Positions 2,832 through 24,992 of a stretch of DNA of 24,992 nt are shown here, piece after piece. The notes below the pieces were generated by a model that worked only from the letters and a program-made list of their open reading frames with translations, did not search any database and had not been told where the DNA came from. Every line of letters begins with the position of its first letter. Positions within the stretch are counted from its first letter, which is position 1. Origin of the DNA: a virus. The stretch spans positions 1-24,992 of the IMG/VR virus record IMGVR_UViG_3300032307_000968. One strand, given 5' to 3'. The position numbers and the translations under genes were made by a program.

Positions 2832-3056
2832 ATGAATATGAATTCATTATTAAACCAATATCTAGGAAAGCAAACAAGAGTTTCTGAAAAAGATAACGGA
2901 GATGGTACAAAACAAGTTTGTGACCTTGATACGGGTGACTGCTACACCATCAGAGAAAGAGATGGTTTGATTGAAAGAGCCGGACATGATGTTACTCTGA
3001 ATAGAAGAGTACGTGTCGAAACCCCAAATGGTATTAAACAACTTTTAAACGGCTAA
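2832..3056 (+). CDS. Small hypothetical phage protein (74 aa)
   Basis: I do not recognise a family. The product is a short, charged, hydrophilic protein with no signal peptide or membrane segment. It contains two cysteines in the motif CDLDTGDC, which could form a tight turn or a partial metal site. The region after it (YTIRERDGLIERAGHDVTLN) looks like short beta strands. A second ATG at 2838 is an alternative start; the first was kept because it follows an A-rich leader (AAGAAAAAACAAC), the usual context in this window. It lies 35 nt after the hub-like gene and 4 nt before the next one, so it is probably co-transcribed with the latter. A structural or tail-assembly accessory role is possible from position only. 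Confidence 0.7.
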   Translation: MNMNSLLNQYLGKQTRVSEKDNGDGTKQVCDLDTGDCYTIRERDGLIERAGHDVTLNRRVRVETPNGIKQLLNG

Positions 3057-3060
3057 TCAA

Positions 3061-3681
3061 ATGAGTATTGATAAGAAAATATTGAGAGAGATTGAAAGAC
3101 ATCATAAAATCAATAAGTATATTAACGAGCAAGAAGCTCCGTTAGTACCTGGTTTACCCGAACCAGGATTAGATGCGGCAGCTGAACCTGCAGCTCCAGT
3201 GGCTCCAGAAACACCACAAAAAATTGATTTGGCAACTGATACTGAAGTTGAAAAAATTGGTGCAGATGCTGGAACTGAAAGTGGTACTGAAGAATTGGAT
3301 GTTACTGAACTGGTGAATTCACAGAAAAAAATTGAGACCAAGCAAGAAGAATATTTTGAAAACTTATTTAGCTATTTGCAAAACCTTGAATCAAAACTAT
3401 CTGACATGGACAACTTGGTAAACAAGTTGAATGACATTGAATCAAAAATTGAAAAATTCAGACCTAAATCACCCGAAGAAAAATTAGCATTAAGAACAAT
3501 CGACTCTGGACCCTTCAACAAAAAGCTATCAGATTTTTTTGATGACAAAAAAGAAGATTGGGAAAAATCCGGAAAACACGAATACATTTTAACATCTGAC
3601 GAAATTGAAGACATAAGTCCTGCAGAAATTAAAAACACATTCAGACTTAACGACAAAAATCAACTACCTAACAAATTTTGA
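3061..3681 (+). CDS. Hypothetical protein with Ala/Pro-rich linker and coiled coil (206 aa)
   Basis: No family is recognised. Three parts are visible: a basic N-terminal helix (residues 1-25, MSIDKKILREIERHHKINKY), a low-complexity Ala/Pro/Glu-rich linker (about 26-80), and a long helical, probably coiled-coil segment (about 85-135, with heptad-like L/I spacing in LFSYLQNLESKLSDMDNLV). A charged C-terminal part (to residue 206) follows. The acidic, elongated design resembles scaffolds, chaperones or tail-assembly factors, but nothing seen here fixes the role. It starts 4 nt after the 74-aa gene's stop codon and is the last gene before a strong terminator, so it belongs to the hub-side transcription unit. 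A short inverted repeat inside it (3148-3154 with 3161-3167) arises from its PGLPEPGL repeat. Confidence 0.7.
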   Translation: MSIDKKILREIERHHKINKYINEQEAPLVPGLPEPGLDAAAEPAAPVAPETPQKIDLATDTEVEKIGADAGTESGTEELDVTELVNSQKKIETKQEEYFENLFSYLQNLESKLSDMDNLVNKLNDIESKIEKFRPKSPEEKLALRTIDSGPFNKKLSDFFDDKKEDWEKSGKHEYILTSDEIEDISPAEIKNTFRLNDKNQLPNKF

Positions 3682-3705
3682 TTTACGATATAATTTACTA
3701 TAATT

Positions 3706-3735
3706 GAGGTTGTGGCAACACAACCTTTTTTATTA
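3706..3735 (+). terminator. Intrinsic terminator with GCAA tetraloop
   Basis: GGTTGTG (3708-3714) pairs perfectly with CACAACC (3719-3725) around the loop GCAA (3715-3718), a GNRA tetraloop. Six T residues follow from 3726. It lies 25 nt after the stop of the 206-aa gene and separates the structural unit from the gp32-like gene. Confidence 0.9.
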
Positions 3736-3767
3736 TTTGACAACTTGAAATCTATTTTCTATCTTTT
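3736..3767 (+). promoter_or_regulatory. Promoter of the gp32-like gene, Bacteroidota type
   Basis: TTTG (3736-3739), a 20-nt spacer, then TATCTTTT (3760-3767) match the Bacteroidota -33 TTTG / -7 TAnnTTTG pattern with one mismatch in the -7 box. The same stretch also reads as TTGACA (3737-3742), 17 nt and TATCTT, so it could be read as a sigma70-like promoter. It lies directly downstream of a terminator, where a new promoter is needed. The predicted start near 3773 gives a leader of about 20 nt before the ATG at 3793. Confidence 0.55.
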
Positions 3768-3792
3768 AAACACTAACTTAAATTAATTTTCT

Positions 3793-4641
3793 ATGAGTTC
3801 ATTAGACGCAGTACTTGCACAGTACGAAAAAAACCAACAATCTGGTGGTGGTAACTTTGGTAAAATGTCTCAGGACGAGCGCATGAAGAAATACTTCGCA
3901 CTCATTCTTGATGACAAATCAAATTCCGGCACCCGTCGTGTCCGCATCCTTCCTACTTCGGATGGAAGCTCTCCTTTTAAGGAAGCGTGGTATCACGAAA
4001 TCCAAGTGGGTGGTAAATGGCAAAAATTTTACGACCCAGGAAAGAACGACAACGAGCGTTCTCCTTTAAATGAAGTTTATGAAGAACTTATGTCCACTGG
4101 TAAAGAGTCGGACAAAGAGCTTGCTAAACAATACAAGTCTCGTAAGTTTTACATCGTTAAGGTCATCGACCGTGACCACGAAGAAGATGGTGTTAAATTC
4201 TGGCGTTTCAAACACAATTACAAGAACGAAGGTATTCTCGACAAGATTATTCCTATCTGGCGTAACAAAGGTGATATTACTGACCCAGAAAAAGGTCGTG
4301 ACCTAATTATTGAATTGGGTAAGCAGAAGACACCAAAAGGAGCAGTTTATACAACAGTATCAACTATTATGTACGAAGACCCTTCAGCAATCCATGATGA
4401 CAAAGCAACTATGGAAGAATGGTTGAAGGATGAATTGGGATGGCAAGATGTATATTCTAAGAAACCAGTTGAGTACCTTGAAGCAATTGCACGTGGTGAG
4501 ACCCCACGTTGGGATAGTGAAAAAGGTGGTTATGTGTATGGTAACGACGAAGCATCTACCGAATCATTTGGTGGTACATCTTCATCAAGCTATCAGGACC
4601 CTCAAGCGGAATCAACACCTGACGAGGACCTACCATTTTAA
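3793..4641 (+). CDS. gp32-like single-stranded DNA-binding protein, zinc-less
   Basis: This protein coats single-stranded DNA during replication and recombination and recruits helicase and recombinase partners. At 282 aa it is close to T4 gp32 (about 300 aa). The core pattern fits gp32: a basic N-terminal arm, RRVRILP (48-54), an aromatic patch YHEIQVGGKWQKFY (67-80), and basic-aromatic KSRKFYIVKVIDRD (115-128) followed by KFWRFKHNYKNEGILDKI (135-152). T4 gp32 binds zinc through one His and three Cys; this protein has no cysteine at all, and the corresponding loop (about 80-100) is polar. A Ser/Gly-rich linker leads to an acidic end, DEDLPF (277-282), like the DDDIPF tip of bacterial SSB. The gene stands alone between two terminators with its own promoter, which suits a protein needed in large amounts. 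Family assignment is fairly secure. Confidence 0.85.
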   Translation: MSSLDAVLAQYEKNQQSGGGNFGKMSQDERMKKYFALILDDKSNSGTRRVRILPTSDGSSPFKEAWYHEIQVGGKWQKFYDPGKNDNERSPLNEVYEELMSTGKESDKELAKQYKSRKFYIVKVIDRDHEEDGVKFWRFKHNYKNEGILDKIIPIWRNKGDITDPEKGRDLIIELGKQKTPKGAVYTTVSTIMYEDPSAIHDDKATMEEWLKDELGWQDVYSKKPVEYLEAIARGETPRWDSEKGGYVYGNDEASTESFGGTSSSSYQDPQAESTPDEDLPF

Positions 4642-4653
4642 TTTAAGTTAGTT

Positions 4654-4677
4654 GGGTGGGGGAAACCCCACCCTTTT
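4654..4677 (+). terminator. Intrinsic terminator with GAAA tetraloop
   Basis: GGGTGGGG (4654-4661) pairs with CCCCACCC (4666-4673) around GAAA (4662-4665), followed by TTTT. The 8-bp GC-rich stem is strong for this AT-rich DNA. It ends the gp32-like transcript. The short T run may allow some read-through into the next gene, which starts 14 nt later and has no obvious promoter of its own. Confidence 0.88.
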
Positions 4678-4690
4678 AATTATTAGACCT

Positions 4691-4927
4691 ATGACTAAAG
4701 AAACTAGACAAAAAGCAATCGACAGTCTCAAAAAGAAATATGAGGCTCAGATTTTGGAAGCGGAAGCAACTATAATGATTTATCTTGAAAATGCTGCCGG
4801 TATTGGCGAACACCCACAGATGTTAGAAGAAATGGATAACATGGTGGAGAAGTTAGCAAATGCAAGCGACAAATTACAAGTATTAACCGAATTTTGGAAA
4901 TATAATGGCAATAAAGAAAGCAACTGA
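4691..4927 (+). CDS. Small helical protein of unknown function upstream of uvsX (78 aa)
   Basis: The frame is open back to a TTG at 4652, but that start would place coding sequence in the terminator stem. The ATG at 4691 (MTKETRQKAIDSLKKKY) is therefore chosen. The protein appears all-helical, with a charged first helix, a middle segment YLENAAGIGEHPQMLEEMD and a last helix ending at LTEFWKY. There are no cysteines and no membrane segment. Its 3' end overlaps the uvsX start by 23 nt, so the two are likely translationally coupled. In T4, small replication and late-transcription accessory genes (59, 33) lie near gene 32, so a loader or co-activator role is conceivable. I cannot assign one from sequence alone. 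Confidence 0.75.
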   Translation: MTKETRQKAIDSLKKKYEAQILEAEATIMIYLENAAGIGEHPQMLEEMDNMVEKLANASDKLQVLTEFWKYNGNKESN

Positions 4928-5921
4928 TTTTTCTTCATTTAAGAAGAAATATTCAACCTCAGCAAAGTATAAACCCCAAAGATTTTTTGATTTGGGAACA
5001 GAGTTCCTCGATGCAGTTGGTCTACCTGGACCAGCAATTGGTCACATCAATATGTTCCTTGGACACTCTGATACTGGTAAAACTACTGCATTAATTAAGA
5101 CAGCGGTTGATGCTCAGAAGAAGGAAATTCTTCCTGTCTTCATTATCACAGAGCAAAAGTGGAGTTTTGAGCACGCACGACTTATGGGCTTTCAGTGCGA
5201 AGAAGCTGTTGATGAGGAGACTGGAGAAATTGATTGGGATGGATTTTTTATCTTCAACAATAACTTTGATTACATTGAACAGATTACTGATTATATCAAC
5301 GACTTGTTGGATGCGCAAGAAAAAGGTGAGCTAGAGTACAGCTTGTGTTTTCTTTGGGATTCAATTGGTTCGGTACCATCAAAGATGACTTTTGAAGGTA
5401 AGGGTGGTAAACAACACAATGCAGCAACTTTAGCTGATAAGATTGGTATGGGTATCAACCAACGTATATCTGGTTCGAGAAAAGCAGAATCCAAATTTGA
5501 AAACAGTTTGATTATTGTGAATCAACCTTGGGTTGAACTTCCAGATAATCCTTACGGACAACCTAAAATCAAAGCTAAAGGTGGTGAAGCAGTATGGCTT
5601 AATAGCTCGTTAGTATTTTTGTTTGGAAATCAAAAAGGAGCTGGTACAACCAAAATTACAGCAACTAAGGACAAGCGGACAGTTAAGTTTGCTAGTAGAA
5701 CTAAGGTTTCTGTAATGAAGAACCACATTAATGGTTTGGGTTACGAGGATGGTAAAATTATTGTTACACCTCATGGGTTCCTTGCGGGTAAGGATACTAC
5801 AGAAGAAAAGGCTTCTATCGAAACTTATAAGAAAGAATATTCCGATTATTGGAAAGAAATAATTGGTAGTGATGGGGATTTCACTTTGAAGGAAGAAAAG
5901 GACCCAGAGAGCTTCTTATAA
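4905..5921 (+). CDS. uvsX: UvsX/RecA-like recombinase
   Basis: An ATP-dependent strand-exchange protein that forms filaments on single-stranded DNA and drives recombination-dependent replication and repair. At 338 aa it is shorter than T4 UvsX (about 390). Walker A is GHSDTGKT (residues 53-60). TEQ (82-84) supplies Glu83 as the likely catalytic glutamate. Walker B is the hydrophobic strand LCFLWD ending at Asp152. IIVNQPW near residue 204 corresponds to the RecA motif with the Gln switch residue. The C-terminus is charged. The start ATG at 4905 lies inside the end of the 78-aa gene, and no better start is available. It comes after the gp32-like gene and before the 5' nuclease, matching the T4 recombination-replication set. 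A hairpin follows the stop. Confidence 0.9.
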   Translation: MAIKKATDFSSFKKKYSTSAKYKPQRFFDLGTEFLDAVGLPGPAIGHINMFLGHSDTGKTTALIKTAVDAQKKEILPVFIITEQKWSFEHARLMGFQCEEAVDEETGEIDWDGFFIFNNNFDYIEQITDYINDLLDAQEKGELEYSLCFLWDSIGSVPSKMTFEGKGGKQHNAATLADKIGMGINQRISGSRKAESKFENSLIIVNQPWVELPDNPYGQPKIKAKGGEAVWLNSSLVFLFGNQKGAGTTKITATKDKRTVKFASRTKVSVMKNHINGLGYEDGKIIVTPHGFLAGKDTTEEKASIETYKKEYSDYWKEIIGSDGDFTLKEEKDPESFL

Positions 5922-12028: not shown

Positions 12029-12499
12029 ATGGCAGATGGTGTTACATATGGTTTAGCGTTTCCCTTTGAAAACTCCAATAAAGGAGATTATCTATTATTG
12101 ACAGAAACGCAATTTGCACAAATAAGAAGTGACCTAATTCACTTGTTACTAACAAGAAAAGGTTCTCGATACTATCTCCCAACATTTGGCACTAGGTTAT
12201 ATGAATTTCTATTTGAACCTTTTGACGGTTTAACCTTTGATGCTATTGAAGCAGACATAAGAGATTCGGTTCAACAATTTATGCCAAACTTACTTATAAA
12301 CAATATTACAATTGAACCTGCAGACCCTTCTGAAGAAGTTCCACTTGCAAGAGGTGAAAGTATTCCAGGACAAGCGAAGGATAATGTTTTCCGTGTTCCT
12401 GGAAAAGGGACATCGGAGTATACAGCAAAAGTTAAAATTGATTATGCTGTAGATAATAACACTTTCGCACAAAGTGATTTTGTTATCTTGAATATTTAA
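12029..12499 (+). CDS. Baseplate wedge subunit, gp25-like
   Basis: A member of the GPW/gp25 lysozyme-like fold family, which forms part of the wedge core joining the baseplate to the sheath. Family features are the N-terminal GLAFPFENS segment (residues 8-16), the helix DLIHLLLTRKGSRYYLPTFG (35-54) with the typical L-L-x-T-x-x-G-x-R-x-x-P-x-F-G pattern, and the following LYEFLFEPFD (57-66). The C-terminal half is beta-rich and carries an insert with Pro/Gly (about 98-128) not expected in the minimal 130-aa T4 protein. It is not an enzyme despite the family name. The start ATG at 12029 follows the terminator and promoter candidate by a few bases. The gp6-like gene starts 6 nt after its stop, as fits co-assembly of both in the wedge. 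Confidence 0.85.
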   Translation: MADGVTYGLAFPFENSNKGDYLLLTETQFAQIRSDLIHLLLTRKGSRYYLPTFGTRLYEFLFEPFDGLTFDAIEADIRDSVQQFMPNLLINNITIEPADPSEEVPLARGESIPGQAKDNVFRVPGKGTSEYTAKVKIDYAVDNNTFAQSDFVILNI

Positions 12500-12505
12500 C
12501 AATAT

Positions 12506-14344
12506 ATGGCTACAAACAGAATATCCTACACTGCTAGGGATTACGAAAGCATCAGAGTTGAATTACAAAACTATGTAAGAACATACTATCCTGAATTGAT
12601 TCAGGATTTCAACGATGCTTCAGTATTTTCTGTTTTTCTTGATTTGAACGCTGCAATTGCGGACAACCTACATTACAATATCGACAGAAGTATTCAGGAA
12701 ACAGTCCTGCAATATGCCCAGCAAAGGTCCTCAATATACAATATAGCCAGAACATACGGTCTTAAAGTTCCCGGACAAAGACCTTCAGTTGCTTTAGTTG
12801 ATTATTCAATTACTGTTCCTGCTTTTGGGGACAAGGAAGATGAAAGATACTTAGGTATTCTCACTCGTGGTTCACAGGTTTTTGGTGCTGGTATTGCATT
12901 TGAAAACCAAAACGATGTTGATTTTGCTTCCCCATATAACAGTTCGGGATTTCCAAACAGAACAAAAATTCCTAACTTCGATGCTAACGGAAACTTAATT
13001 AACTATACAATAACCAAAAGAGAATTGGTTGTTAATGGTATAACAAAAGTTTTCAAAAGAGTTATCAATCCAGCCGACGTTAGACCTTTCTACGAATTGT
13101 TTCTTCCTGAGAAAAACGTTTTGGGGATAACAAGTGTACTTCTGAAATCGGGAACTAACTATACCAACGTACCAACAGCATCAGAATTTATTGGTTTAGA
13201 AAATAGATGGTTAGAGGTTGATGCTTTAGCCGAAGATAGAGTTTTCATTGAAGACCCAACAAAAGTCTCTGACCAGCCAGGAATTAAAGTAGGAAGATAC
13301 GTTCAAACAAACAGTCGTTTCATTACGGAATTTACTCCAGAAGGATTTTTGAAAATGACTTTTGGTGGAGGTACAACTTCAGCTCAAGATAGTTTGAATG
13401 CTTTCACAAATCTGGGGGTTCCAGTTAACATCCAATCGTTGAGTAATAACTTCTCGCTAGGGTCGACACTAGCACCAAACTCAACACTATTTGTACAATA
13501 CAGAATAGGTGGGGGATTAGCTACAAACATAGGGACAAACGTTATTAACCAAGTTGGTACTGTATCATTCTTTGTTAATGGACCTTCACAAACCATTAAC
13601 TCTGCTGTAATCAACTCACTAAGGTGTAATAACCCAACGGCAGCCATAGGTGGTTCAAATGTTCCCACAACCGAAGAAGTTAGAAACTATGTTAGTTTTA
13701 ACTTTTCAGCTCAAAAAAGAGCCGTTACAGTTAATGATTATGAGTCTTTACTTCGCAACATGCCAAGTCAATTTGGTGCACCAGCAAAAGTGTCAATTAC
13801 AGAAAACAACAACAAAATCCTAATCAATTTACTATCTTTTGACACCTCAGGTAAATTGACAAACATTGTATCAAATACCCTAAAACAAAACGTTGCAAAT
13901 TACCTCTCTAACTATCGAATGATTAACGATTACATTCAGGTAACCACCGCGAACGTGATTGACCTTGGGGTTGAAATTTCAGTTGTTCTTGATGCCACCC
14001 AAAATTCTGGTCAAGTTGTTTCTGAGATTGTTAACCGAGTGTCTGAATATTTTAATCCAATCGGAAGAGAGTTAGGGCAGAACGTATATTTGTCGCAACT
14101 AAGAAGTATTGTTCAGAATCAAATAGGGGTTATTACGGTAACTGATATTGTAATTTCAAATAAAGTGGGGGGTCAGTATTCCGGAGCTGAAACATCAATG
14201 GCTTATTCAGACCCAGAATTGAAAATTATTGCTCCTGTTGATGATACAATCTTTGCTGAGCCAGACCAAATCTACCAAGTTAGATATCCTCAAAAAGATA
14301 TTGTAGTAAGAGTTAAGAATTTACAGAACGTATCTTTTACTTAA
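12506..14344 (+). CDS. Baseplate wedge protein, gp6-like
   Basis: Forms the inner ring or fork of the baseplate wedge together with the gp25-like protein. The first 95 residues match the conserved gp6 opening: YTARDYESIRVELQNYV (8-24), YYPELIQDFNDASVFSVFLD (27-46), the DNLHYNIDRSIQE helix (53-65) and RSSIYNIARTYGLKVPG (73-89). Middle beta-rich domains follow. The C-terminal part (about 385-510) has EEVRNYVSFNFSAQKRAVTV and NDYESLLRNMP, typical of the J/gp6 dimerisation region. Its 612 aa compares with 660 in T4 gp6. It lies directly after the gp25-like gene with a 6-nt gap and an A/T-only leader. Assignment rests on local motifs and gene order and is fairly secure. Confidence 0.85.
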   Translation: MATNRISYTARDYESIRVELQNYVRTYYPELIQDFNDASVFSVFLDLNAAIADNLHYNIDRSIQETVLQYAQQRSSIYNIARTYGLKVPGQRPSVALVDYSITVPAFGDKEDERYLGILTRGSQVFGAGIAFENQNDVDFASPYNSSGFPNRTKIPNFDANGNLINYTITKRELVVNGITKVFKRVINPADVRPFYELFLPEKNVLGITSVLLKSGTNYTNVPTASEFIGLENRWLEVDALAEDRVFIEDPTKVSDQPGIKVGRYVQTNSRFITEFTPEGFLKMTFGGGTTSAQDSLNAFTNLGVPVNIQSLSNNFSLGSTLAPNSTLFVQYRIGGGLATNIGTNVINQVGTVSFFVNGPSQTINSAVINSLRCNNPTAAIGGSNVPTTEEVRNYVSFNFSAQKRAVTVNDYESLLRNMPSQFGAPAKVSITENNNKILINLLSFDTSGKLTNIVSNTLKQNVANYLSNYRMINDYIQVTTANVIDLGVEISVVLDATQNSGQVVSEIVNRVSEYFNPIGRELGQNVYLSQLRSIVQNQIGVITVTDIVISNKVGGQYSGAETSMAYSDPELKIIAPVDDTIFAEPDQIYQVRYPQKDIVVRVKNLQNVSFT

Positions 14345-14435: not shown

Positions 14436-17400
14436 ATGGGACAGTCCTTGAGAATAAACACTAGTGTTGGTATAGATAAAAACATTTCATTCCAATTAGA
14501 CCAAGATTTCGAGTTTCTTGAAATCCTATCTCTTCAAATATTTCAAAATGATATTTACCCAAGAGATTGTGCTGATTTCGGAGTTGTTGTTGGTAGAGTT
14601 GTTGCAAACGGTGGACTTGGAATACCAAACGCAAAAGTATCGATTTTTGTTCCAATCACAGAGGCTGATGCCCTGAACGACAGAATAGTTCAGTTATATC
14701 CTTATACACAACCTAACGATAAAAATGATGATGGATACAGGTTCAACTTGTTACCATATCTACAATCCTATTCAACACATGCTGCAACCGGAACTTTCCC
14801 TTCAAGAGAGGATGTTCTTAAAGACCCCGTTGTAGTCGATATCTACGACAAATATTATAAGTTTACCGTAAAAACCAATGATAGCGGAGACTTTATGATT
14901 CTAGGTGTCCCTGTTGGACAGCAAACAATTGTTATGGATTTGGACTTGAGTGATATTGGAGAGTTTTCTTTAACACCTCAAGATTTAATTAGAATTGGTT
15001 TAGCGACAGAAGCACAAGTTGCAGGAAGCACATTCAGAACTTCAACTGACCTAGACTCACTTCCACAAATTATTCACATTGAAAAGGTTTTTGAAGTTGC
15101 TCCATTCTGGGGTGAGCCCACAATTTGCCAATCGTCAATAAGCAGAATCGATTTTGATTTAAGAGATGAAGCGAACATTGACATCCAACCTACGGCAGTG
15201 TTCATGGGTTCAATTTATTCTACTGGTGACGAGTTTAAAATAGCAGCACCACTTGGTTTTGGTGATGAACCACCTTCTTTGCTGACTGCCGGATGTAAGC
15301 CAAAAGATAATATGGGTAATCTTTGTGATTTGACTACTGGTCCAGGGCAACTTTTAGCTGTAAGACAAACAATAGTCCAAGATGACCAAGGGAGACCAAT
15401 TCTTGAAGAATACCGTTTAGAAAATTCTGGCAATGTCATTGATGAAAATGGTACTTGGTTGGTAGAGGTTCCAATGAACATGGACTACTTAACCACAAAC
15501 GAAGAAGGTCAAAGAATTTTTTCAAGAGACCCTCGGGTTGGTATACCAACAAAAAGTAAATACCGATTCAAAGTTAAGTGGCAACAAGCACCAACAGATA
15601 CAGAACCGGTTAAGAGAGCTTATTATTTATTACCTAATGTTAGGGAGTGGGGTTGGAGGACGTCAGTTATTGACCCAAACTATGATAACTCATTGAATAC
15701 AAGCCGAGAACTTGCTAGTTCATATTATTTTGGTCTTGATTGGACGGGATATACTGATGCAGAATCTGCGACAGTTTCAAATCAAAAGTTGCAGGCTGCA
15801 ATAAATTGTCAAGACACCTTTTATGAGTTTGAGTATAATAAAGTTTATACCCCTGCTGGTTTAATTGACCAATATAAAAGAGGTATCAATAGAGGTCGAT
15901 TTATTGGTATCAAGGAAATTGGGAATAGTGATTGTGAAACCACGGTAAATAAGTTTCCTGTAAATGATGGTGTAAAAAACTTCAGTACAAACTTTTTCTT
16001 GTTTGCTATATTGATGCAATTCATTCAATTAATTTTCCCTATAATTTTGATTATTTATCACGTTTTAGGATTTGTTGTTAATTCGTTTATAGTTCCTCTA
16101 ATTCAACTTGTTGTAAGGTTTCAGAATATTGTTGCTTATGCTTTGTTAGTCATTGGTGGTGCTCTAGCTATTTTTGGTGGAGCTGGAATACCTTTAATTG
16201 TTGCTGGTGTTAGTTTGCTATTAGGGGGGCAATCCTTAAGTAATCTTTTACAAAGATTTGTTCAATTTTTGAGATTTGGACCTTTAAGACTCCCAATGAT
16301 AACGTATCCTGAGTGTCAGAATTGTGATTGTGCAACCCCAAGTTTGGATGGTGGTGGTGACTCAACACCAAACTCATTATTAACACCATTAACACAGAGT
16401 GGTTTATATTTTGAAGCGTTTGAAGATTATTCCGGTTTACCACCTCAGAAAAATGGAGATGATGGAGAGCCAAGTGATGCAAACGTTTCGGTTTTATCTT
16501 TAATTTTTTCGGAATCAATTGGAACAAGAATATCAGACAATAAAAAATTAGGGCAAAATAATTCAACTGATTCACAAATTTCCAGATTACCAGACACATT
16601 AAATATTTTTAGGGTTCCAAAGAAGGTGTTTTCAATATCTCCGGACATCCCAATGGCCCAGAGAATTAATATTTTTAATACCAGAAAAAAGTATTTTGAT
16701 GGGGTAAACAGAATTAGTGTAAGTTTCGATAATCCAAATAATTTAACAACACAACACTTTGATAATACGTTAACAATTTTAACTCAATCACCCCTTACTG
16801 CTGGCACACTTTTAACTTGTGTGGGTATAGACAAAACTGAGGATGTAAATTTCCTTTATTCGGGAAATACTGCTTTTGGTGGTATCAGTGGAACTACTCT
16901 TCTTCCAGGTGCTGGAACTGTGACGGTAAACTATGCAACAAGCCAAACCGCAAATGCGAGTAAAACTTACTTTTTGAACACGGGTTCTACAATTGATAAT
17001 TATAAGTTTCCGGCAGATTTAGAATATTATCAAGTACTTACAGCAATCACCGTAAGTGACGCATTTGCAATATCAAGTGGGGGCTTCATGAATATTTTAG
17101 ATTCAAATACACAAATTGAGTGGGCGGTTAAAGATTTAGGAAATTGGGTTGGTCAAACATCTTTAACGGTTAAAACCAGAGATTTTTATGATGGATTTGA
17201 CAATCAATATATTTTAATTCTTCAAAGAGGCGTTGACCCATATTCACCCCTCTACACTAACCGATATGGTATTGGAAGTTTATTTGGATTATCAAACACA
17301 AATTCATTAACTTTTACTGCACAAACAAGACTTAACATTCCCATACAGGCTCTACCTGCTAATGGAATTTCAGTTCAAAACCACACCAGTCAAAACAACA

Positions 17401-19439
17401 TCTTCTATTCATCGTATTTCTTTGAAGCAACTAATGACTTCACTGCTTTTACAACAAGCAATGTTGGTTATTACAGTGCTATTGATGGAAATAGAAACTA
17501 TTCAATTTACAATAATCCAACCGTAGGTCCAATTAACACTCCTCTTATTACAACAGGCCAGATGGGATGGGTTTCAAACTATTTGAACACACCTACAAAT
17601 AGTTCCGTTGAAATTGTTGTTTCTAAACCAACAAACGATGCTTTCAGTACTACACCTAACCAAGCAAAATATGATGCGACAGAAGACTTGTCTGGAGCTG
17701 ATTTTTTTTGGATGAATGTTTATAATGAAGATGATGAATTCCAAGAAAACCCCTCTAATTCAAACAGCGTTTATTACAGTTTCTCATTATTACCCACTGT
17801 TGATGCTCCAAATACAAAACTCAATATTACTAATAAATCAAGAAACGTATTAAGAACCGACAGATTACCGTCGTCCGATTTCTTGGATGGTAATGCTTGG
17901 AATTCAGTTGTTCCTGTTTTACAAATGAACCGTGGATTTACCATGTATATTCTTGATACCGGTGGTGAAAGTATTGCGATAACAACTTATGGTTCTGGGG
18001 CAAGTATAGTTGGCAATGATATTGAAGACCTTCCAGGGGCATTGGATATCACTGAAACTTTTTCTTGTGAAAATATGGTGAGTCTTGATTGTTATTCTAA
18101 TGTCGGTAATACTTTAGTGGTTGATAGCAATTGTGTTGAGGAAGACAGAATTGAGCGTGGGTGTTTTGTTTTTGCTAAGCGTCCACTTATAAGAACATTA
18201 CCAGGAGATTTAGTAGCATTTACTGAGTGGGGTCTAAGATACAGATTTTTATACGCATTGTGTCAAGGGGTGGTTTCGCAAACATTTACAAATAACTGGG
18301 TGAATGGAAGTTTGTACACGTTCCCTTTTGCTGTAAGAACACTTTATGGTGCTAATAATCAAATTTCTAAAAGAGTTTTTTGTAAAGACCTCATTTATTA
18401 TAATGAAGACAGCAATAATTTTTACTATAGAAGCAGTCCATACAGCCCAACAAGCGACAGCTTTGTTGGAAAATTAAATAATCCACTTACTGGTTCTTTA
18501 AACGATTATAGTTTGAAAACTCCAGCAACTATCATGAACCTAGGGCCTAAAACAGCAATTTTCAAAGAGCTTACTTTGAATCCATCGGATGATGGTTTTG
18601 TTATGGATGTTCTCACTCCAACAAGTTATGGAGACACAAGTGATTTGTTAAACTTGTTTGTGATTACAAGAATGACAAATGCTTCCTATCTCAGATTCTT
18701 ACTTCAGTATTATCCAGGTGTTGCAGGAACTAACTTAGCAATTAACAGTTTATTTTCTAGACCACTTTTAAGACTTGATGGGGATATTACTCAAATGCTT
18801 TCAATTAATTCTGAATTCGGGGTTATAAAATTCAGTTCACAAAGTTATCAGGATGACCCTAATGACCCTAATAATCCGATTTACATCGCAAGAAATCCGA
18901 ACGGATTTTCGGTAATGGGTATTTTCTATTCATCGACTACTGAAGATTTACAATACAAGGATTACTTATCACCAGGAAGAATAAATTTCAGACCAACACC
19001 TTCTTCAAATGCTTTTCCTTATTATTATGATTTGAAATCACAAAGAGTTCCTTTTTATCGTTGGAGAAGAGATGATGTTGCAAAGTTGTGGAGCAGCATA
19101 AACGTCGTACTCAACTTAGGAAACCAAGTTGGAATATTCGGAACTCAAAGTAATGACTGGGCAACAGACAACTCTGACATTTTTAGCAAGAATTATCAAG
19201 CACAAGATAGAACAAACCCATCGCAACCATCTTACTTTTTGGGTTCAAATTCACAACTAAACGACATTGATGCTAGGGGATATATTTTTAATGTTGATGC
19301 AAATGGAAATTACTCAACAACAGCAGGAAACTATCCAGATGTTTTTGCGGTAGGTGCGCCAAACCATTTTTACTTTGGTTTAATAAAAGGAGGGACTTCA
19401 TTAGATAGGTTCAAATCAAAGTACTTAGCAGATGAATAG
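14436..19439 (+). CDS. Giant baseplate-operon protein with internal hydrophobic, membrane-like domain (1667 aa)
   Basis: Placed after gp25- and gp6-like genes, where T4 has gene 7 (1032 aa), but I see no clear gp7 similarity. The N-terminal part (about 48-173) contains GRVVANGGLGIPNAKVSIFV and KTNDSGDFMILGVPVGQ, the pattern of a carboxypeptidase-regulatory-like (Ig-type) beta sandwich. Residues 520-598 are almost wholly hydrophobic and would make three or four membrane helices (roughly 520-541, 543-560, 565-583, 585-598). ECQNCDC (Cys627, Cys630, Cys632) follows closely and could bind metal. The remaining 1000 residues are Asn/Ser/Thr/Tyr-rich and beta-like, with a DPNDPNNP repeat from 18855. 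Without a signal peptide, membrane insertion would probably happen during infection, as proposed for tape-measure proteins. Structural role likely; mechanism unknown. Confidence 0.8.
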   Translation: MGQSLRINTSVGIDKNISFQLDQDFEFLEILSLQIFQNDIYPRDCADFGVVVGRVVANGGLGIPNAKVSIFVPITEADALNDRIVQLYPYTQPNDKNDDGYRFNLLPYLQSYSTHAATGTFPSREDVLKDPVVVDIYDKYYKFTVKTNDSGDFMILGVPVGQQTIVMDLDLSDIGEFSLTPQDLIRIGLATEAQVAGSTFRTSTDLDSLPQIIHIEKVFEVAPFWGEPTICQSSISRIDFDLRDEANIDIQPTAVFMGSIYSTGDEFKIAAPLGFGDEPPSLLTAGCKPKDNMGNLCDLTTGPGQLLAVRQTIVQDDQGRPILEEYRLENSGNVIDENGTWLVEVPMNMDYLTTNEEGQRIFSRDPRVGIPTKSKYRFKVKWQQAPTDTEPVKRAYYLLPNVREWGWRTSVIDPNYDNSLNTSRELASSYYFGLDWTGYTDAESATVSNQKLQAAINCQDTFYEFEYNKVYTPAGLIDQYKRGINRGRFIGIKEIGNSDCETTVNKFPVNDGVKNFSTNFFLFAILMQFIQLIFPIILIIYHVLGFVVNSFIVPLIQLVVRFQNIVAYALLVIGGALAIFGGAGIPLIVAGVSLLLGGQSLSNLLQRFVQFLRFGPLRLPMITYPECQNCDCATPSLDGGGDSTPNSLLTPLTQSGLYFEAFEDYSGLPPQKNGDDGEPSDANVSVLSLIFSESIGTRISDNKKLGQNNSTDSQISRLPDTLNIFRVPKKVFSISPDIPMAQRINIFNTRKKYFDGVNRISVSFDNPNNLTTQHFDNTLTILTQSPLTAGTLLTCVGIDKTEDVNFLYSGNTAFGGISGTTLLPGAGTVTVNYATSQTANASKTYFLNTGSTIDNYKFPADLEYYQVLTAITVSDAFAISSGGFMNILDSNTQIEWAVKDLGNWVGQTSLTVKTRDFYDGFDNQYILILQRGVDPYSPLYTNRYGIGSLFGLSNTNSLTFTAQTRLNIPIQALPANGISVQNHTSQNNIFYSSYFFEATNDFTAFTTSNVGYYSAIDGNRNYSIYNNPTVGPINTPLITTGQMGWVSNYLNTPTNSSVEIVVSKPTNDAFSTTPNQAKYDATEDLSGADFFWMNVYNEDDEFQENPSNSNSVYYSFSLLPTVDAPNTKLNITNKSRNVLRTDRLPSSDFLDGNAWNSVVPVLQMNRGFTMYILDTGGESIAITTYGSGASIVGNDIEDLPGALDITETFSCENMVSLDCYSNVGNTLVVDSNCVEEDRIERGCFVFAKRPLIRTLPGDLVAFTEWGLRYRFLYALCQGVVSQTFTNNWVNGSLYTFPFAVRTLYGANNQISKRVFCKDLIYYNEDSNNFYYRSSPYSPTSDSFVGKLNNPLTGSLNDYSLKTPATIMNLGPKTAIFKELTLNPSDDGFVMDVLTPTSYGDTSDLLNLFVITRMTNASYLRFLLQYYPGVAGTNLAINSLFSRPLLRLDGDITQMLSINSEFGVIKFSSQSYQDDPNDPNNPIYIARNPNGFSVMGIFYSSTTEDLQYKDYLSPGRINFRPTPSSNAFPYYYDLKSQRVPFYRWRRDDVAKLWSSINVVLNLGNQVGIFGTQSNDWATDNSDIFSKNYQAQDRTNPSQPSYFLGSNSQLNDIDARGYIFNVDANGNYSTTAGNYPDVFAVGAPNHFYFGLIKGGTSLDRFKSKYLADE

Positions 19440-21126
19440 ATTTGAAATAATCCCCTCAAGACTTAGTTTTAAGTCCGCACCGATTGTTGACCAACAGGTT
19501 AGTATTGATTTGAATCAAACGCAAAAGGAGTTGACCCAGTATGTTAGAAACAACTCATTATCCCTTGAACAATTGTATCAGGATGAACGTCAAGCTTCAT
19601 CAAGATTTAGACCGAGCTTCAAGGTTCAGTATTTGTATGATAACACTTTGACTGGCACCACAGGGTACAATCCATTCAAGAATAATTTGTATTATGTTGA
19701 CCCAATACAATCAAAGTTAAGTGGTGTTTGGAAAGGATTTCCGCAATTTTATGAGTTTGATTTTTTTAGAACAAGAATAGATGATGGGCATTTTGATTAT
19801 CAACCTGTAAGTGCCTATACCTACAATTGGACTTACTACTTGACTTATGCTGCAGAAAATGACTATACCAAACCCATGGAAGCCACGTATCAAAATACTA
19901 CGATTAATTGGATTTCTGGGGATGGAATTCCTTTTATAATGTTTAAGTCCATCCAGGGAGGTGCAAACATAATCTCATTCCAATGTTTAATGCCGCACAA
20001 TTTGACAATCGACAATTTTGTCGAATTGTCATTTTCATATGACGAGGAAAATATATTTGGAATTTATTCATTTGGCGATTCCAACTTTGATAGTTCAAAT
20101 TTCATATTCAATATTTTAGATATTGGTTATACTGGAACAACATTTACCGACGGTGCAACAGGAACATTCAAAAGAGTACTAGACCCAAACAACTTAGCGG
20201 AAACTCGCTCAAAATATTATGTCAGAAAAAATAGAATTGTTTACAACGAAAATGATATTATAACAACAAAAACTGGGTTTGAATTAAATTCTTTTCCTAA
20301 CGAGAAAAAATTGGAGTACAGTTCAATAACTCCGAATGATGTAACCAGGATTTCTCAAAAAACAAGTTCATTGACATATAACTTCACCCTTGCAAAAGAC
20401 TTGGTGTTAAGTGCTACAACCGATAATCATAATCGTCCGGTTGGTGAAGTCTTTTTATCAATAGTTAACAAGGGATATAGTGGATACTTCAACAAAGCAA
20501 ATAATGGTGTTGGTTTGAAACAGGGTTGGGTATTCAATATAACCAATCAAGTGGATTCTTGGTGGAGCGAACTCAATCAGGATTCATATACCAACATACC
20601 AGTAGATTCGTACACTTTAACAAATGGAACTACAGAAACTTTCTATTATAACAGAGTGCTGAACCCTGGAGATTTAATTGATGGTGATTTTTGTGAGTGG
20701 AATGATTATACGCAATTCGAACTTGTGGTTTCTAGATATGTTCAAAAAATTCAGTTTAATCAGGAAGTTTTTACTACTGAAACAACACCGTCATATAATT
20801 CTTTGGGCTATTACTACTTACCCCACAATTCAATGGTGCTTAGGATATTCTCGGACTACATCGAAACATCCCCAGCAAACCAAGTTGATGGTATTCCATC
20901 TTGGGCATATTTCTCTGAACAAGACCAACAGTTCCGTTGGAGAGAACCATACTTTTATGGTGAATTTGATGAACTTGACAGGGGAACAAACTTTCCATAT
21001 TTAAACCGAGCACACTATCCTTTTTCCAACCAAATCTTTCGTTTAATTCCTGAGGGAAGTAATTATCAAGAGGTGCTGGGTGGATTTGATATTCCTGTTC
21101 AGCCAATCATTGATGACTGTGAATAA
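19432..21126 (+). CDS. Tail/baseplate structural protein of unknown family (564 aa)
   Basis: No family recognised. Composition is strikingly rich in Tyr, Phe, Asn, Ser and Thr and poor in Lys- or Glu-rich helices, which indicates a beta-structured virion protein. The N-terminus (IIPSRLSFKSAPIVDQQ) is followed by a helical-looking stretch (residues 27-55, NQTQKELTQYVRNN onward). Near the C-terminus WRWREPYFYGEFDELDRG-like aromatic-acidic text (WREPYFYGEFDELDRGTNFP, residues 503-522) stands out. The ATG overlaps the end of the 1667-aa gene by 8 nt (ATGAATAG), so the two are translationally coupled and probably made in fixed ratio. It occupies the position of T4 genes 8 to 10. A role as a wedge or tail-fibre-attachment protein is inferred only from order. 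A strong hairpin lies inside the gene at 20004-20030. Confidence 0.75.
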   Translation: MNRFEIIPSRLSFKSAPIVDQQVSIDLNQTQKELTQYVRNNSLSLEQLYQDERQASSRFRPSFKVQYLYDNTLTGTTGYNPFKNNLYYVDPIQSKLSGVWKGFPQFYEFDFFRTRIDDGHFDYQPVSAYTYNWTYYLTYAAENDYTKPMEATYQNTTINWISGDGIPFIMFKSIQGGANIISFQCLMPHNLTIDNFVELSFSYDEENIFGIYSFGDSNFDSSNFIFNILDIGYTGTTFTDGATGTFKRVLDPNNLAETRSKYYVRKNRIVYNENDIITTKTGFELNSFPNEKKLEYSSITPNDVTRISQKTSSLTYNFTLAKDLVLSATTDNHNRPVGEVFLSIVNKGYSGYFNKANNGVGLKQGWVFNITNQVDSWWSELNQDSYTNIPVDSYTLTNGTTETFYYNRVLNPGDLIDGDFCEWNDYTQFELVVSRYVQKIQFNQEVFTTETTPSYNSLGYYYLPHNSMVLRIFSDYIETSPANQVDGIPSWAYFSEQDQQFRWREPYFYGEFDELDRGTNFPYLNRAHYPFSNQIFRLIPEGSNYQEVLGGFDIPVQPIIDDCE

Positions 21127-21958: not shown

Positions 21959-23021
21959 TTATAAGTTTGTTGTTGGACCAGGTAATATAAGCTCTGACTT
22001 AACAACTGTTGATGTAAGTGGAACTAGCGTTGGGGTATATTCATCCATGACGCAAGTTCTAAGTGGGGGAACAAATGGTGATTCTATTTTAACAGGATTA
22101 AGCGTTTGTATTATGCTAACGGAGACCACCATCGATTTGGGATATTATTCGCCATTTGATGGTGCTGCAGAGCAGAAAGATGTGGTTACAAACTTTATTT
22201 TTACTTCATCAACCAACTCACCATATGTTTATACGGTTTTCAATTCTTCTGACAAAGCAGCTAACTACCTTGCTCTTGCCAGCTATACGATAAACTGGGG
22301 GGATAATACTCCAGATGAAATATTTTTGGGGGATACTTTGTCCCACACCTACCCAACAATACCATCAGGATATACCATTACGATGAAACAGACAACACCT
22401 TTTGGTGTTAATGACGTGTCCAAAATAGTAACGTTACCTTTTACAAATGCGGTAATTTATAACCCGTTGGGTCGTGCCTTCTTCACACCTCTTGGTGGAA
22501 GCTGGGCAAACACACCAATAAGTTATGATTACATATTCTCGGGTGATGCTGTGAACACAGTAGAAAGCGAGGTTTCTTCTGGATATACCCAGGTTCCATT
22601 TGTTGTTTCTGGAAACTCTAGCTCAAGAATTACGGAACTGGCTTTGTATGGGCCTGTTACATATCAAGTTGGGGTTCCTGTTTTTGTGGGGGGATTGCCC
22701 TATGGAGTTATCACGGATATGAATCCGGTGTTCACTGCATACACAATTCAAGATACAAATTATTATGACTATTCGGATGGAACAAGTATCTATTTCCAAA
22801 ATAGTGATGGTTTTACAAGCGACATGCTAACTGCGGTTCCAATCACAAAAGACGAGTTGTTGCTCAAAATACAAGACCAACCTCAAATCGTTACAGATGT
22901 TTATGTTGAAAGGGGTAAAAATACTGTGTACCAGCAGATTCAAAGATTAGGTGAGGTGTCTACCCTTTCCGGATTAATAAACTATGGTTATGGATACTAC
23001 ACCATAGAAAATAAGGGATAA
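21951..23021 (+). CDS. Tail protein with a PKD-like domain (356 aa)
   Basis: Residues about 111-163 read as a PKD-type Ig-like domain: YTINWGDNTPDEI (112-124) with the W-G-D turn (116-118), SHTYPTIPSGYTITM (131-145) with the H-T-Y strand, then a closing strand (VSKIVTLPF). PKD folds are common in surface-exposed adhesive proteins of Bacteroidota and also occur in phage tail and fibre proteins. The rest is Ser/Thr/Tyr/Gly-rich and beta-like, and it ends in a helical segment (DELLLKIQDQPQIVTDVYVE) with a Gly/Tyr tail. Its ATG overlaps the preceding stop by 8 nt (ATGGCTGA). A distal baseplate or fibre-attachment role is plausible; receptor binding is possible but not shown. Confidence 0.75.
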   Translation: MADYKFVVGPGNISSDLTTVDVSGTSVGVYSSMTQVLSGGTNGDSILTGLSVCIMLTETTIDLGYYSPFDGAAEQKDVVTNFIFTSSTNSPYVYTVFNSSDKAANYLALASYTINWGDNTPDEIFLGDTLSHTYPTIPSGYTITMKQTTPFGVNDVSKIVTLPFTNAVIYNPLGRAFFTPLGGSWANTPISYDYIFSGDAVNTVESEVSSGYTQVPFVVSGNSSSRITELALYGPVTYQVGVPVFVGGLPYGVITDMNPVFTAYTIQDTNYYDYSDGTSIYFQNSDGFTSDMLTAVPITKDELLLKIQDQPQIVTDVYVERGKNTVYQQIQRLGEVSTLSGLINYGYGYYTIENKG

Positions 23022-23050
23022 ACTATTTATAAAAATAAGAAACTTCAAGG

Positions 23051-23959
23051 ATGGCAATCGGAACCTACGGAACAATTAGACCAGCGGATGTATCGCCGGA
23101 GGATGTAGAAATCATCCTAAATTATACACCATCAAGGGATGAGACTGCAGATTTTGTGCTAACTACCCTTGACGCACCAAGTGTGCTTAGACCTTACTTT
23201 AACAACGCAGCCACTGGTGGAAATGCGAATGTTGAGGTTTTGGGTGGCTTATACAACCTAACACTTCCTGCTGATGTGTTCAATCAGGTGGGAATTTACA
23301 CAATGATGCTCCGACCTGCGCAGATTAGAACATCAATTACCGATTGTGGTGTCCTATCAGCTTTGCCAAACGTTAAAGGTATTATTATTGACCTTAACAA
23401 TGTCCCTTCGCAATTCAGAAACAAGTTTGCACCGCAGGGACTTATTGGATTTAGAGTTGAATATTTGAATCCAGATGGTTCGAAGATTCCAAACTTCTTT
23501 AGAATTGTAACTTCGAACTTCTATTGTGAGCCAGTGGTTGTGAACCAAGTAAACACAACACAGAAAGCTATTAGATATCGTTACGTGGAAGGGGTGACAA
23601 ACCTTATGTTCTGTACTTTGTCTCCTTCGTCATCTCCGACGAATAAGCCCAACGCAACACCATTTATCGGTCAACCAGGACAAAGTATTGTTATGACAAA
23701 CACTTACTTTAATCCGGTTACCATTGAGATTGATATGGTTGAATACGATATCTCTTCACTTGCAATTGCCCTTTACGGAAATCAGACCAAGAGTGTTGAC
23801 GATGGTATCTACACAATCTACGACAGTGATAATAACATTTACAAGCAGTACAACTTGTTTGAAATCCGTGACCAGTTCAATGCTCTTCTATACGAGGTTC
23901 GTCAGGATAGAGGTGCTAATATTGATTTTACTAAAAACTTCACAACAATAGTTAGCTAA
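23051..23959 (+). CDS. Tail/baseplate structural protein of unknown family (302 aa)
   Basis: No family recognised. It opens with MAIGTYGTIRPADVSPEDVEI and has several clear beta strands (VEVLGGLYNLTL, GIYTMMLRPAQI, GLIGFRVEYLNPDG), suggesting a beta sandwich or a domain that sits on the baseplate. The C-terminal part (GIYTIYDSDNNIYKQYNLFE, then a helix FNALLYEVRQDRG) may mediate oligomer contacts. Three cysteines are scattered without a motif. It is one of the few genes here with AAGG close to its start (CAAGGATG), a weak Shine-Dalgarno-like match. TTTATAAAAATAAG in the 29-nt gap before it is AT-rich but gives no clear promoter. The next gene starts on its stop codon (TAATG), so the two are translationally coupled. 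Confidence 0.72.
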   Translation: MAIGTYGTIRPADVSPEDVEIILNYTPSRDETADFVLTTLDAPSVLRPYFNNAATGGNANVEVLGGLYNLTLPADVFNQVGIYTMMLRPAQIRTSITDCGVLSALPNVKGIIIDLNNVPSQFRNKFAPQGLIGFRVEYLNPDGSKIPNFFRIVTSNFYCEPVVVNQVNTTQKAIRYRYVEGVTNLMFCTLSPSSSPTNKPNATPFIGQPGQSIVMTNTYFNPVTIEIDMVEYDISSLAIALYGNQTKSVDDGIYTIYDSDNNIYKQYNLFEIRDQFNALLYEVRQDRGANIDFTKNFTTIVS

Positions 23960-24992
23960 TGGCGGTAAATAGTACGAAGTTTTTCTACCCACCTACCCCG
24001 GGAAATGGGGCTGGAACCTTTGATGATATTGTTGGATTTCAAATCGTCGAGGGTGGCGGTCTAACTTCTGCTGTTTTTGATTTTACCACAACAGTTACCG
24101 AGAAGGTAAACAGGACTTTCTCTATTGGAACATTCTCGAATCCAATTTCACTTGAGGATTTGGATGTAAACTCCCTGGAGGAAAGCAGAAGAATTCTGCA
24201 GACCCAGTTTAGAGTTTACCCAAATTATGATGTTTCCCAAGTTCTTAACTTTTCTTTATATGGTTCTCTAGCAAAAAGGTTGAGTGTGTCTGTTACACAT
24301 ATCATCAATTATTTTCCTGCTGGTGTTGATGTAAGAAGAGTAATGCCAGATTTTACAACTGGACAAACAGCAACAGGAATTACCTATAATGCCGTAGAAC
24401 AAGAAACAACTTTCACAGTTCCAGTATCTCAAGCTTATAACCCATTCATGATTGAGTTCTCTCAGAGTGCTACAACAGCTATGATGGTAAGAGAATTGGA
24501 GACTTCTCAATACAGAAATTTGACAAGAAGTTACCTTAATTACGTTCTGGATTATAATGGAGAAACTTATATCGTTGTTGATTTCGAACCTTCTGTCAGC
24601 CAATCATCAGGAAACTTAATTTTCACTGTGTCTGGTGCACCATTTGGTAACGCAACAAGTTCTACTACTGAAGATTTTATTATCAGACCTAGCAACTACA
24701 TCGTTGACAAAGTATTTCAGGAAGATTTTGACGAGGTTGAGCAGTTTTTGATGAACCGCTTAATACAACCTGAATACACAGCCAATTTCCAAGTACCACA
24801 ACAAAACCAAGCTGGTCAGTTCTACACATCCTATGTTCAAGTTACATTCCCTAAGGATGGTGATTGGAATCTAGATATTACTTCATTCAGATTTGACAAC
24901 TACCTTGCAAGATTGGGGGATGTTGCGGGTGAGCTTGACACCTACAAAACAAATTTGATTTCGAGATTTTTGGTTACAGCATCAATCAAAGA
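23959..24992 (+). CDS. Structural protein running off the right edge (first 344 codons)
   Basis: The ATG at 23959 shares its A with the TAA of the previous gene (TAATG). From there the frame is open to the last base of the window without a stop, so this is the 5' part of a longer gene. The protein begins MAVNSTKFFYPPTPGNGAG, then has beta-rich segments (KVNRTFSIGTFSNPISLEDL, LSVSVTHIINYFPAG, FTVPVSQAYNPFMIEF). It ends within the window at a helical, charged stretch, RFDNYLARLGDVAGEL followed by DTYKTNLISRFLVTASIK. The shift from beta-rich to helical suggests a second domain downstream. No known family is recognised. Gene order and composition place it with the other baseplate/tail proteins. 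The opposite-strand open frame at 24268-24603 is a shadow of this gene. Confidence 0.78.
   Translation, partial: MAVNSTKFFYPPTPGNGAGTFDDIVGFQIVEGGGLTSAVFDFTTTVTEKVNRTFSIGTFSNPISLEDLDVNSLEESRRILQTQFRVYPNYDVSQVLNFSLYGSLAKRLSVSVTHIINYFPAGVDVRRVMPDFTTGQTATGITYNAVEQETTFTVPVSQAYNPFMIEFSQSATTAMMVRELETSQYRNLTRSYLNYVLDYNGETYIVVDFEPSVSQSSGNLIFTVSGAPFGNATSSTTEDFIIRPSNYIVDKVFQEDFDEVEQFLMNRLIQPEYTANFQVPQQNQAGQFYTSYVQVTFPKDGDWNLDITSFRFDNYLARLGDVAGELDTYKTNLISRFLVTASIK

Follow-up and report, generated by a model that had tools for sequence, protein, structure and literature searches.

Can a phage baseplate carry, within one of its own proteins, a domain that enters the envelope of the host during DNA delivery? 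The question is raised by a baseplate-operon product of 1667 residues, referred to here as BIG, which is encoded in the window analysed in this study (the whole stretch of 24,992 nucleotides, positions 1 to 24,992 of IMG/VR virus record IMGVR_UViG_3300032307_000968). An earlier note on this DNA had proposed that a hydrophobic segment of BIG is such a domain. Much of what that proposal builds on has stood: the segment is real, conserved and under constraint, it lies in a gp25-gp6 operon, and it has a pattern like that of a membrane bundle. The helix count and the comparison with T4 have fared less well. As to the proposal itself, we give about an even chance to the reading that the segment serves the baseplate as an anchor or pore element that inserts into a membrane, resembling phi29 gp9 in its action and unrelated to it by descent. 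The features on which the argument depends are collected in Table 1.

Table 1. Features of the window that bear on the hydrophobic segment of BIG and on its operon.
Feature	Position	Strand	Basis
gp25-like baseplate wedge gene	12029..12499	+	Pfam GPW_gp25, 39.4 bits against a cut-off of 27.2
gp6-like (Baseplate_J) wedge gene	12506..14344	+	Pfam Baseplate_J, 35 bits against a cut-off of 21.1; PHROG wedge subunits
BIG, baseplate-operon product, 1667 aa	14436..19439	+	open frame and translation
N-terminal beta-sandwich region of BIG, residues 44-250, with insertions (predicted)	14565..15185	+	fold suggestive of carboxypeptidase-regulatory/transthyretin-like domains
Cys500, first of four Cys bracketing the segment	15933..15935	+	35/35 full-length relatives
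Anchor motif N-K-F-P-V-N, residues 505-510	15948..15965	+	opens the gap-free core alignment; 284/285 members
First hydrophobic helix (predicted), residues ~518-580, conserved core 518-550	15987..16175	+	AlphaFold2 and column analysis
His542, on the stripe within the hydrophobic core	16059..16061	+	His in 79% of clade I (weighted)
Second hydrophobic helix (predicted), residues ~585-612	16188..16271	+	AlphaFold2; in relatives the length varies or the helix is absent
Cys627-x2-Cys630-x-Cys632 in motif YPxCxxCxC	16314..16331	+	35/35 full-length relatives; 128/129 of the wider clade
Second near-invariant Cys cluster: 1211, 1219, 1233, 1243, 1276	18066..18263	+	31-34/35 relatives
564-aa product, directly after BIG	19432..21126	+	relatives in about 203-205 loci
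~990-aa gp7/Tail_P2_I-like wedge protein (putative), 5' part, cut by window end	23959..24990	+	Tail_P2_I and profile matches

Residues 520-598 of BIG are almost free of charge, as the earlier note had observed: by translation they contain no Asp, Glu or Lys, one Arg and one His. The interval that it marked, 15990-16332, corresponds to residues 519-632 with one base over. The best 79-residue interval of BIG has a mean Kyte-Doolittle (KD) hydropathy of 1.98, a value reached by none of 5000 shuffles (mean 0.66, maximum 1.40), and a run of 92 residues contains no more than one charge, whereas the longest such run in 1000 shuffles had 69. The 19-residue KD peak of 2.64, on the other hand, is unexceptional for the composition of BIG (shuffle maximum 3.01). 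That is, the length of the hydrophobic stretch, and not its 19-residue peak, is what is exceptional. Among the remaining tail-operon products of the window, KD peaks are all below 1.5.

The segment had been judged long enough for three or four membrane helices, a number that is now less sure: two AlphaFold2 runs with different flanks both yield two helices, at residues ~518-580 and ~585-612, with pLDDT of 53-71 in the segment. The whole-model means of 57 and 50 denote low confidence, which applies equally to the predicted beta-rich structure of the parts of BIG around the segment. A VIA-align comparison of the hairpin (residues 527-620) returned only unrelated long helices, not above chance for helical models. 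Residues 44-250 align by VIA-align with several transthyretin/carboxypeptidase-regulatory domains at Z of 5-6.3 over 80-100 residues, values too low to establish a family, and Pfam CarboxypepD_reg scores the N-terminal part at E 0.063 and 14.1 bits, under its cut-off of 32.3. The resemblance of this region to transthyretin or carboxypeptidase-regulatory sandwiches is suggestive only.

The conserved core of the segment has a more definite signature. When the core is aligned gap-free over 33 residues, anchored at the motif N-x-hydrophobic-P-x-N, small or polar residues occupy columns 20, 24, 27, 31, 34, 38, 41 and 45, and oily residues the others. In the window these columns are A524, Q528, Q531, P535, L538, H542, G545 and N549, a perfect 3-4 heptad; which of the stripe columns are polar differs by clade. 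The mean KD value is -0.12 on the stripe versus 2.47 in the other columns, and strongly polar residues make up 34% of the former versus 6% of the latter. Although the heptad columns were first spotted by eye, the periodogram test is independent of that choice: in each of three clades analysed separately, hydropathy has its strongest period at 98-100 degrees, with column-permutation p-values of 0.001-0.008 for the maximum over angles, which, since the sequences are related by descent, serve as guides rather than as exact probabilities. Judged by its sequence, the core is a helix with a single small or polar stripe, turned inside out by comparison with a soluble coiled coil and patterned like the helices of a membrane bundle. 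A soluble bundle would have the reverse, an oily stripe and a polar outside.

A relative is counted here as having a hydrophobic stretch if, beyond the N-terminal part, its 19-residue KD reaches 1.6 or more. By this definition such a stretch occurs at the same place in 283 of the 285 members that extend far enough to show it, and in complete members it begins 72-198 residues past the N-terminal part. Only L151 and L237 differ, with a short soluble stretch in its stead. Both of them (L151 at 2870-5110) keep the N-terminal part and lack the hydrophobic segment as well as CxxCxC, and they are usable as natural deletions; when parts of L151 and L153 were used to search IMG/VR for others without the segment, no further case emerged. 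In the wider CxxCxC clade the span from the anchor to the Cys motif ranges from 71 to 172 residues and includes one to four KD peaks, the counts among relatives being 61 with one peak, 96 with two, 50 with three and 6 with four. A span of this range implies that a core is kept while the rest varies. Common to all members, including the short forms with 71-72 residues from anchor to Cys, is a minimal core of ~36 residues. In the gut/rumen clade this core has ~3 charges per 36 residues and is less membrane-like; in the first clade the flank after the segment is net positive, with K+R of 3.4 and D+E of 1.1 per 25 residues.

Values of dN/dS are ~0.055-0.11 in the segment versus 0.014-0.041 in the N-terminal part. 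Thus, the segment is under purifying selection and is slightly less constrained than the domain that precedes it. These values, together with the conservation of the segment, rule out a frameshift or a chance hydrophobic frame.

The segment is bracketed by four cysteines. The triplet Cys627-x2-Cys630-x-Cys632 is present as the earlier note reported, except that it does not follow at once but 28 residues past residue 598. The position of C500 is the anchor minus 5, and it is occupied by Cys in the 144 members with YPxCxxCxC and in almost none without it. Across 284 members, 144 have both C500 and CxxCxC, 135 have neither and 5 are discordant, a co-occurrence that is structured by clade and does not represent 284 independent events; of the five discordant members, two seem to be truncated where the contig ends and two retain CxxC. 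This co-occurrence suggests that the four cysteines belong to a single site, either a metal site or a disulfide clasp, at the hairpin base. Other cysteines occur nearby in some relatives and elsewhere in BIG. The L086-L137 subgroup has extra ones (CxxC...C...C) in a shorter hydrophobic insert, 5' of YPxCxxCxC, and the five at residues 1211-1276, far 3' of the segment, may form another metal or disulfide site.

The assignment of BIG to a baseplate operon, made in the earlier note, is borne out by its neighbours in nearly all of the 302 loci that contain the N-terminal part: gp6 is found in 297 and gp25 in 280. The 564-residue gene is found in about 203-205, a count lowered by the many contigs that end before it. 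From its place behind gp6, BIG might be taken as the counterpart of gp7. The hhalign probability to T4 gp7 is 0.3% and there is no Pfam hit, and we dropped this candidate when gp7-type matches pointed to the ~990-residue product instead. In four contigs Tail_P2_I gives weak hits in the same location, that of the ~990-residue product, and full-length relatives of this product match proteins of Immutovirus and of Microcystis phage Mel-JY01 by profile; there was no match to T4 gp7 itself. These full-length relatives contain the motif YLFKSKGTRRSVEF, as do Immutovirus gp109 and the Mel-JY01 protein, both labelled hypothetical in their records. By these profile matches, the gp7/Tail_P2_I-like wedge protein of the phage group is the ~990-residue product that starts at 23959. 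Since the gp7-type match falls to that product, and none to BIG, BIG is an additional member of the operon. At the other end of the window, a 905-residue product (79-2796) carries the stretch LRHVPLFNGSYMITEVVHTISPGTF, which is reminiscent of phage hub or VgrG-type proteins; the product as a whole had no family match.

BIG has hundreds of relatives in IMG/VR. A scan with BIG gave 69 loci at 33-94% identity, a scan with the alignment gave at least 598 confirmed stretches, of which 80 were kept, and scans with two distant genome-bin relatives gave 160 more rows. The relatives come from freshwater, marine and rumen/gut contigs of up to 412 kb, and are mostly 1400-3000 residues long. BIG has no match in Pfam, PHROG or NCBIfam (PHROGs were also blank for 29 members), a profile search of PDB sequences with BIG found no match, and tblastn of BIG and its relatives L058, L150 and L151 against INPHARED (50,697 phage records, phi29 included) found no relative. 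Foldseek, with both models against BFVD and with model 1 against the PDB, found nothing convincing except A0A8S5LA66. A tail sheath gene is present in 11 of 12 related long contigs. We conclude that a large uncultivated contractile-tailed phage family carries BIG, a protein that no protein-family library used here names. The L150 and L155-L234 members (rumen/gut, up to 412 kb) encode giant versions of ~1900-3000 residues that share the N-terminal part and the core helix but lack CxxCxC; the huge contigs of this clade had no tblastn match among named phage records.

The earlier note had also pointed to Bacteroidota, which is likely for the phage group as a whole, the window's own genome being known over just 25 kb. 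Two of four genome-bin matches are assigned to Bacteroidota, and a bS21 gene scores above the cut-off in 5 of the 12 related long contigs, some of which may be fragments. The bS21 phages described in PMC9723584 infect Bacteroidetes, and on this ground the hosts of the group are probably Bacteroidota. The contigs with bS21 are L120, L027, L052, L281 and L255 (G001, G002, G005, G006 and G007), and they link this tail type to bS21 phages. In L120, the tail-operon product at 22722-23783 also contains SprB repeats that score above the Pfam cut-off; such repeats are known from adhesins on the surface of Bacteroidota.

It is important to ask what else a conserved segment of this kind could be doing. 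Counting against insertion into a host envelope are the low AlphaFold2 confidence, the charged core of the gut/rumen clade, the segment-less L151 and L237, and the precedent of T4 gp7, a wedge protein that has a membrane-like stretch and yet has been solved as part of the baseplate. The segment could be pictured as a buried helical core, that is, an oligomerisation bundle inside the baseplate, formed by BIG with itself, with gp6 or with other wedge proteins, that never meets lipid. Contractile baseplates are indeed built on helical core bundles of the gp6 and gp7 types (PMC10457771), and both the presence of the ~36-residue minimal core in all members, short forms included, and the tolerance of charged residues in the gut/rumen clade would suit such a role. 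The gp7-type partner of gp6, however, is the ~990-residue product and not BIG. Moreover, with oily residues on most of its faces, the helix would have to be buried completely on nearly all sides; the variation in span and in the number of KD peaks is odd for a fitted core; and the segment-less relatives retain the rest of the N-terminal part. On balance we regard a buried core as somewhat unlikely.

Alternatively, the hairpin may act in the cell that makes the phage, inserting co-translationally in the host inner membrane and holding the growing baseplate there, with no role in the next infection. A segment this long and hydrophobic would be expected to engage the SRP pathway, a hairpin would keep both flanking parts in the cytoplasm, and the positive flank behind the segment fits a side that remains inside. 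A contractile device of Anabaena is anchored by Cis13 in the membrane of its producing cell (PMC8894136). Lytic phages, however, must afterwards detach from the membrane, and the window shows no device for release; nor are the peak counts consistently even. We consider this reading improbable. More improbable still, to a high degree, is that BIG is a non-virion membrane protein of infection, such as a host takeover or lysis helper, that lies in the tail operon by chance: such a role would fit its lack of similarity to named virion proteins in the Pfam, PHROG, NCBIfam and PDB profile searches, and is opposed by the size of its relatives, by its beta-rich predicted structure, and by its fixed place between gp6 and the 564-residue gene in some 300 loci of very different genomes.

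The preferred reading, insertion of the segment into the host envelope, can be spelled out as follows. BIG would be an extra structural baseplate protein of contractile-tailed, probably Bacteroidota-infecting phages, in which a hydrophobic helical hairpin sits between a beta-rich N-terminal part and a long beta-rich C-terminal part. The base of the hairpin would probably be clasped by C500 together with C627, C630 and C632, and in the virion the hairpin would be shielded by self-association or by neighbouring proteins. Upon contact or contraction, several copies would expose their hairpins, which would insert in the host envelope as a bundle, with the stripe facing inwards and the oily faces turned to the lipid. 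The inserted bundle might then anchor the baseplate, or line a passage for the tube or the DNA. In a bolder form, which we think unlikely, the contractile phages of Bacteroidota would have evolved a membrane-active baseplate whose Cys-clasped inside-out hairpins form an alpha-helical ring around the penetrating tube in the host envelope. To our knowledge, such a ring is a mode of entry that has not been described for contractile tails.

In general terms, the tail baseplate may have a part of its own in breaching or gripping the host envelope. If the segment does insert into membranes, the role of the baseplate goes beyond triggering and docking, which bears on how DNA of contractile phages passes the inner membrane and on how phages cross the envelope of Bacteroidota. 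The short forms and the rare segment-less relatives provide ready comparisons for examining these questions.

Among deposited sequences, one true relative of BIG is A0A8S5LA66 of Myoviridae sp. ctPuP5 (BFVD/UniProt; Foldseek E of 3.6e-30, 34% identity over 487 columns), which is deposited as uncharacterised and for which we found no description of the hydrophobic segment. The nearest named phages encode, close behind gp6, the large proteins Immutovirus gp109 and the 1336-residue protein of Mel-JY01, but these are kin of the ~990-residue product, not of BIG, and are without a hydrophobic stretch. The earlier note held that T4 wedge proteins have nothing like the segment. Nothing as long is found there, but residues 886-904 of T4 gp7 form a 19-residue stretch with a KD of 2.07, and the GenBank note on gp7 reads 'C-terminus is predicted integral membrane domain'. 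Since gp7 has nonetheless been solved as part of the baseplate, it is a warning against reading hydropathy as insertion. Like BIG, T4 gp7 is a large product encoded directly after gp6 with one membrane-like stretch; unlike BIG, it has a single stretch of 19 residues, it shares no profile similarity with BIG, and its type is represented here by another gene.

Two systems offer parallels to the proposed function. The contractile injection system of Anabaena, with Cis13 and Cis12, has a membrane-anchoring helix in its baseplate region, and the transmembrane helix of Cis13 anchors it in the thylakoid membrane (PMC8894136). The Cis13 helix is C-terminal, on a trimer of tail-fibre type, whereas the segment of BIG lies in the interior of a giant phage-operon protein, and Cis12, in the baseplate, has at most an amphipathic helix (PMC8894136). 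The other parallel, and the nearest as a working model, is gp9 of phi29, a podovirus tail knob protein of a phage with a Gram-positive host, to which no sequence relation was found. Its loop has a KD peak of 1.29 versus 2.64 in BIG, so that it is excluded as a quantitative match, and no such Cys bracket is present in the loop read; because of the lower peak the analogy is loose, and a pore-forming loop need not be as hydrophobic as the segment of BIG. Both, however, are beta-rich tail proteins (for BIG, by virtue of its operon) with one long internal hydrophobic loop. In phi29, gp9 is present in six copies, and its L-loops exit on genome release, leaving the tail knob and assembling into a barrel of helices whose outer surface is hydrophobic (PMC6542822).
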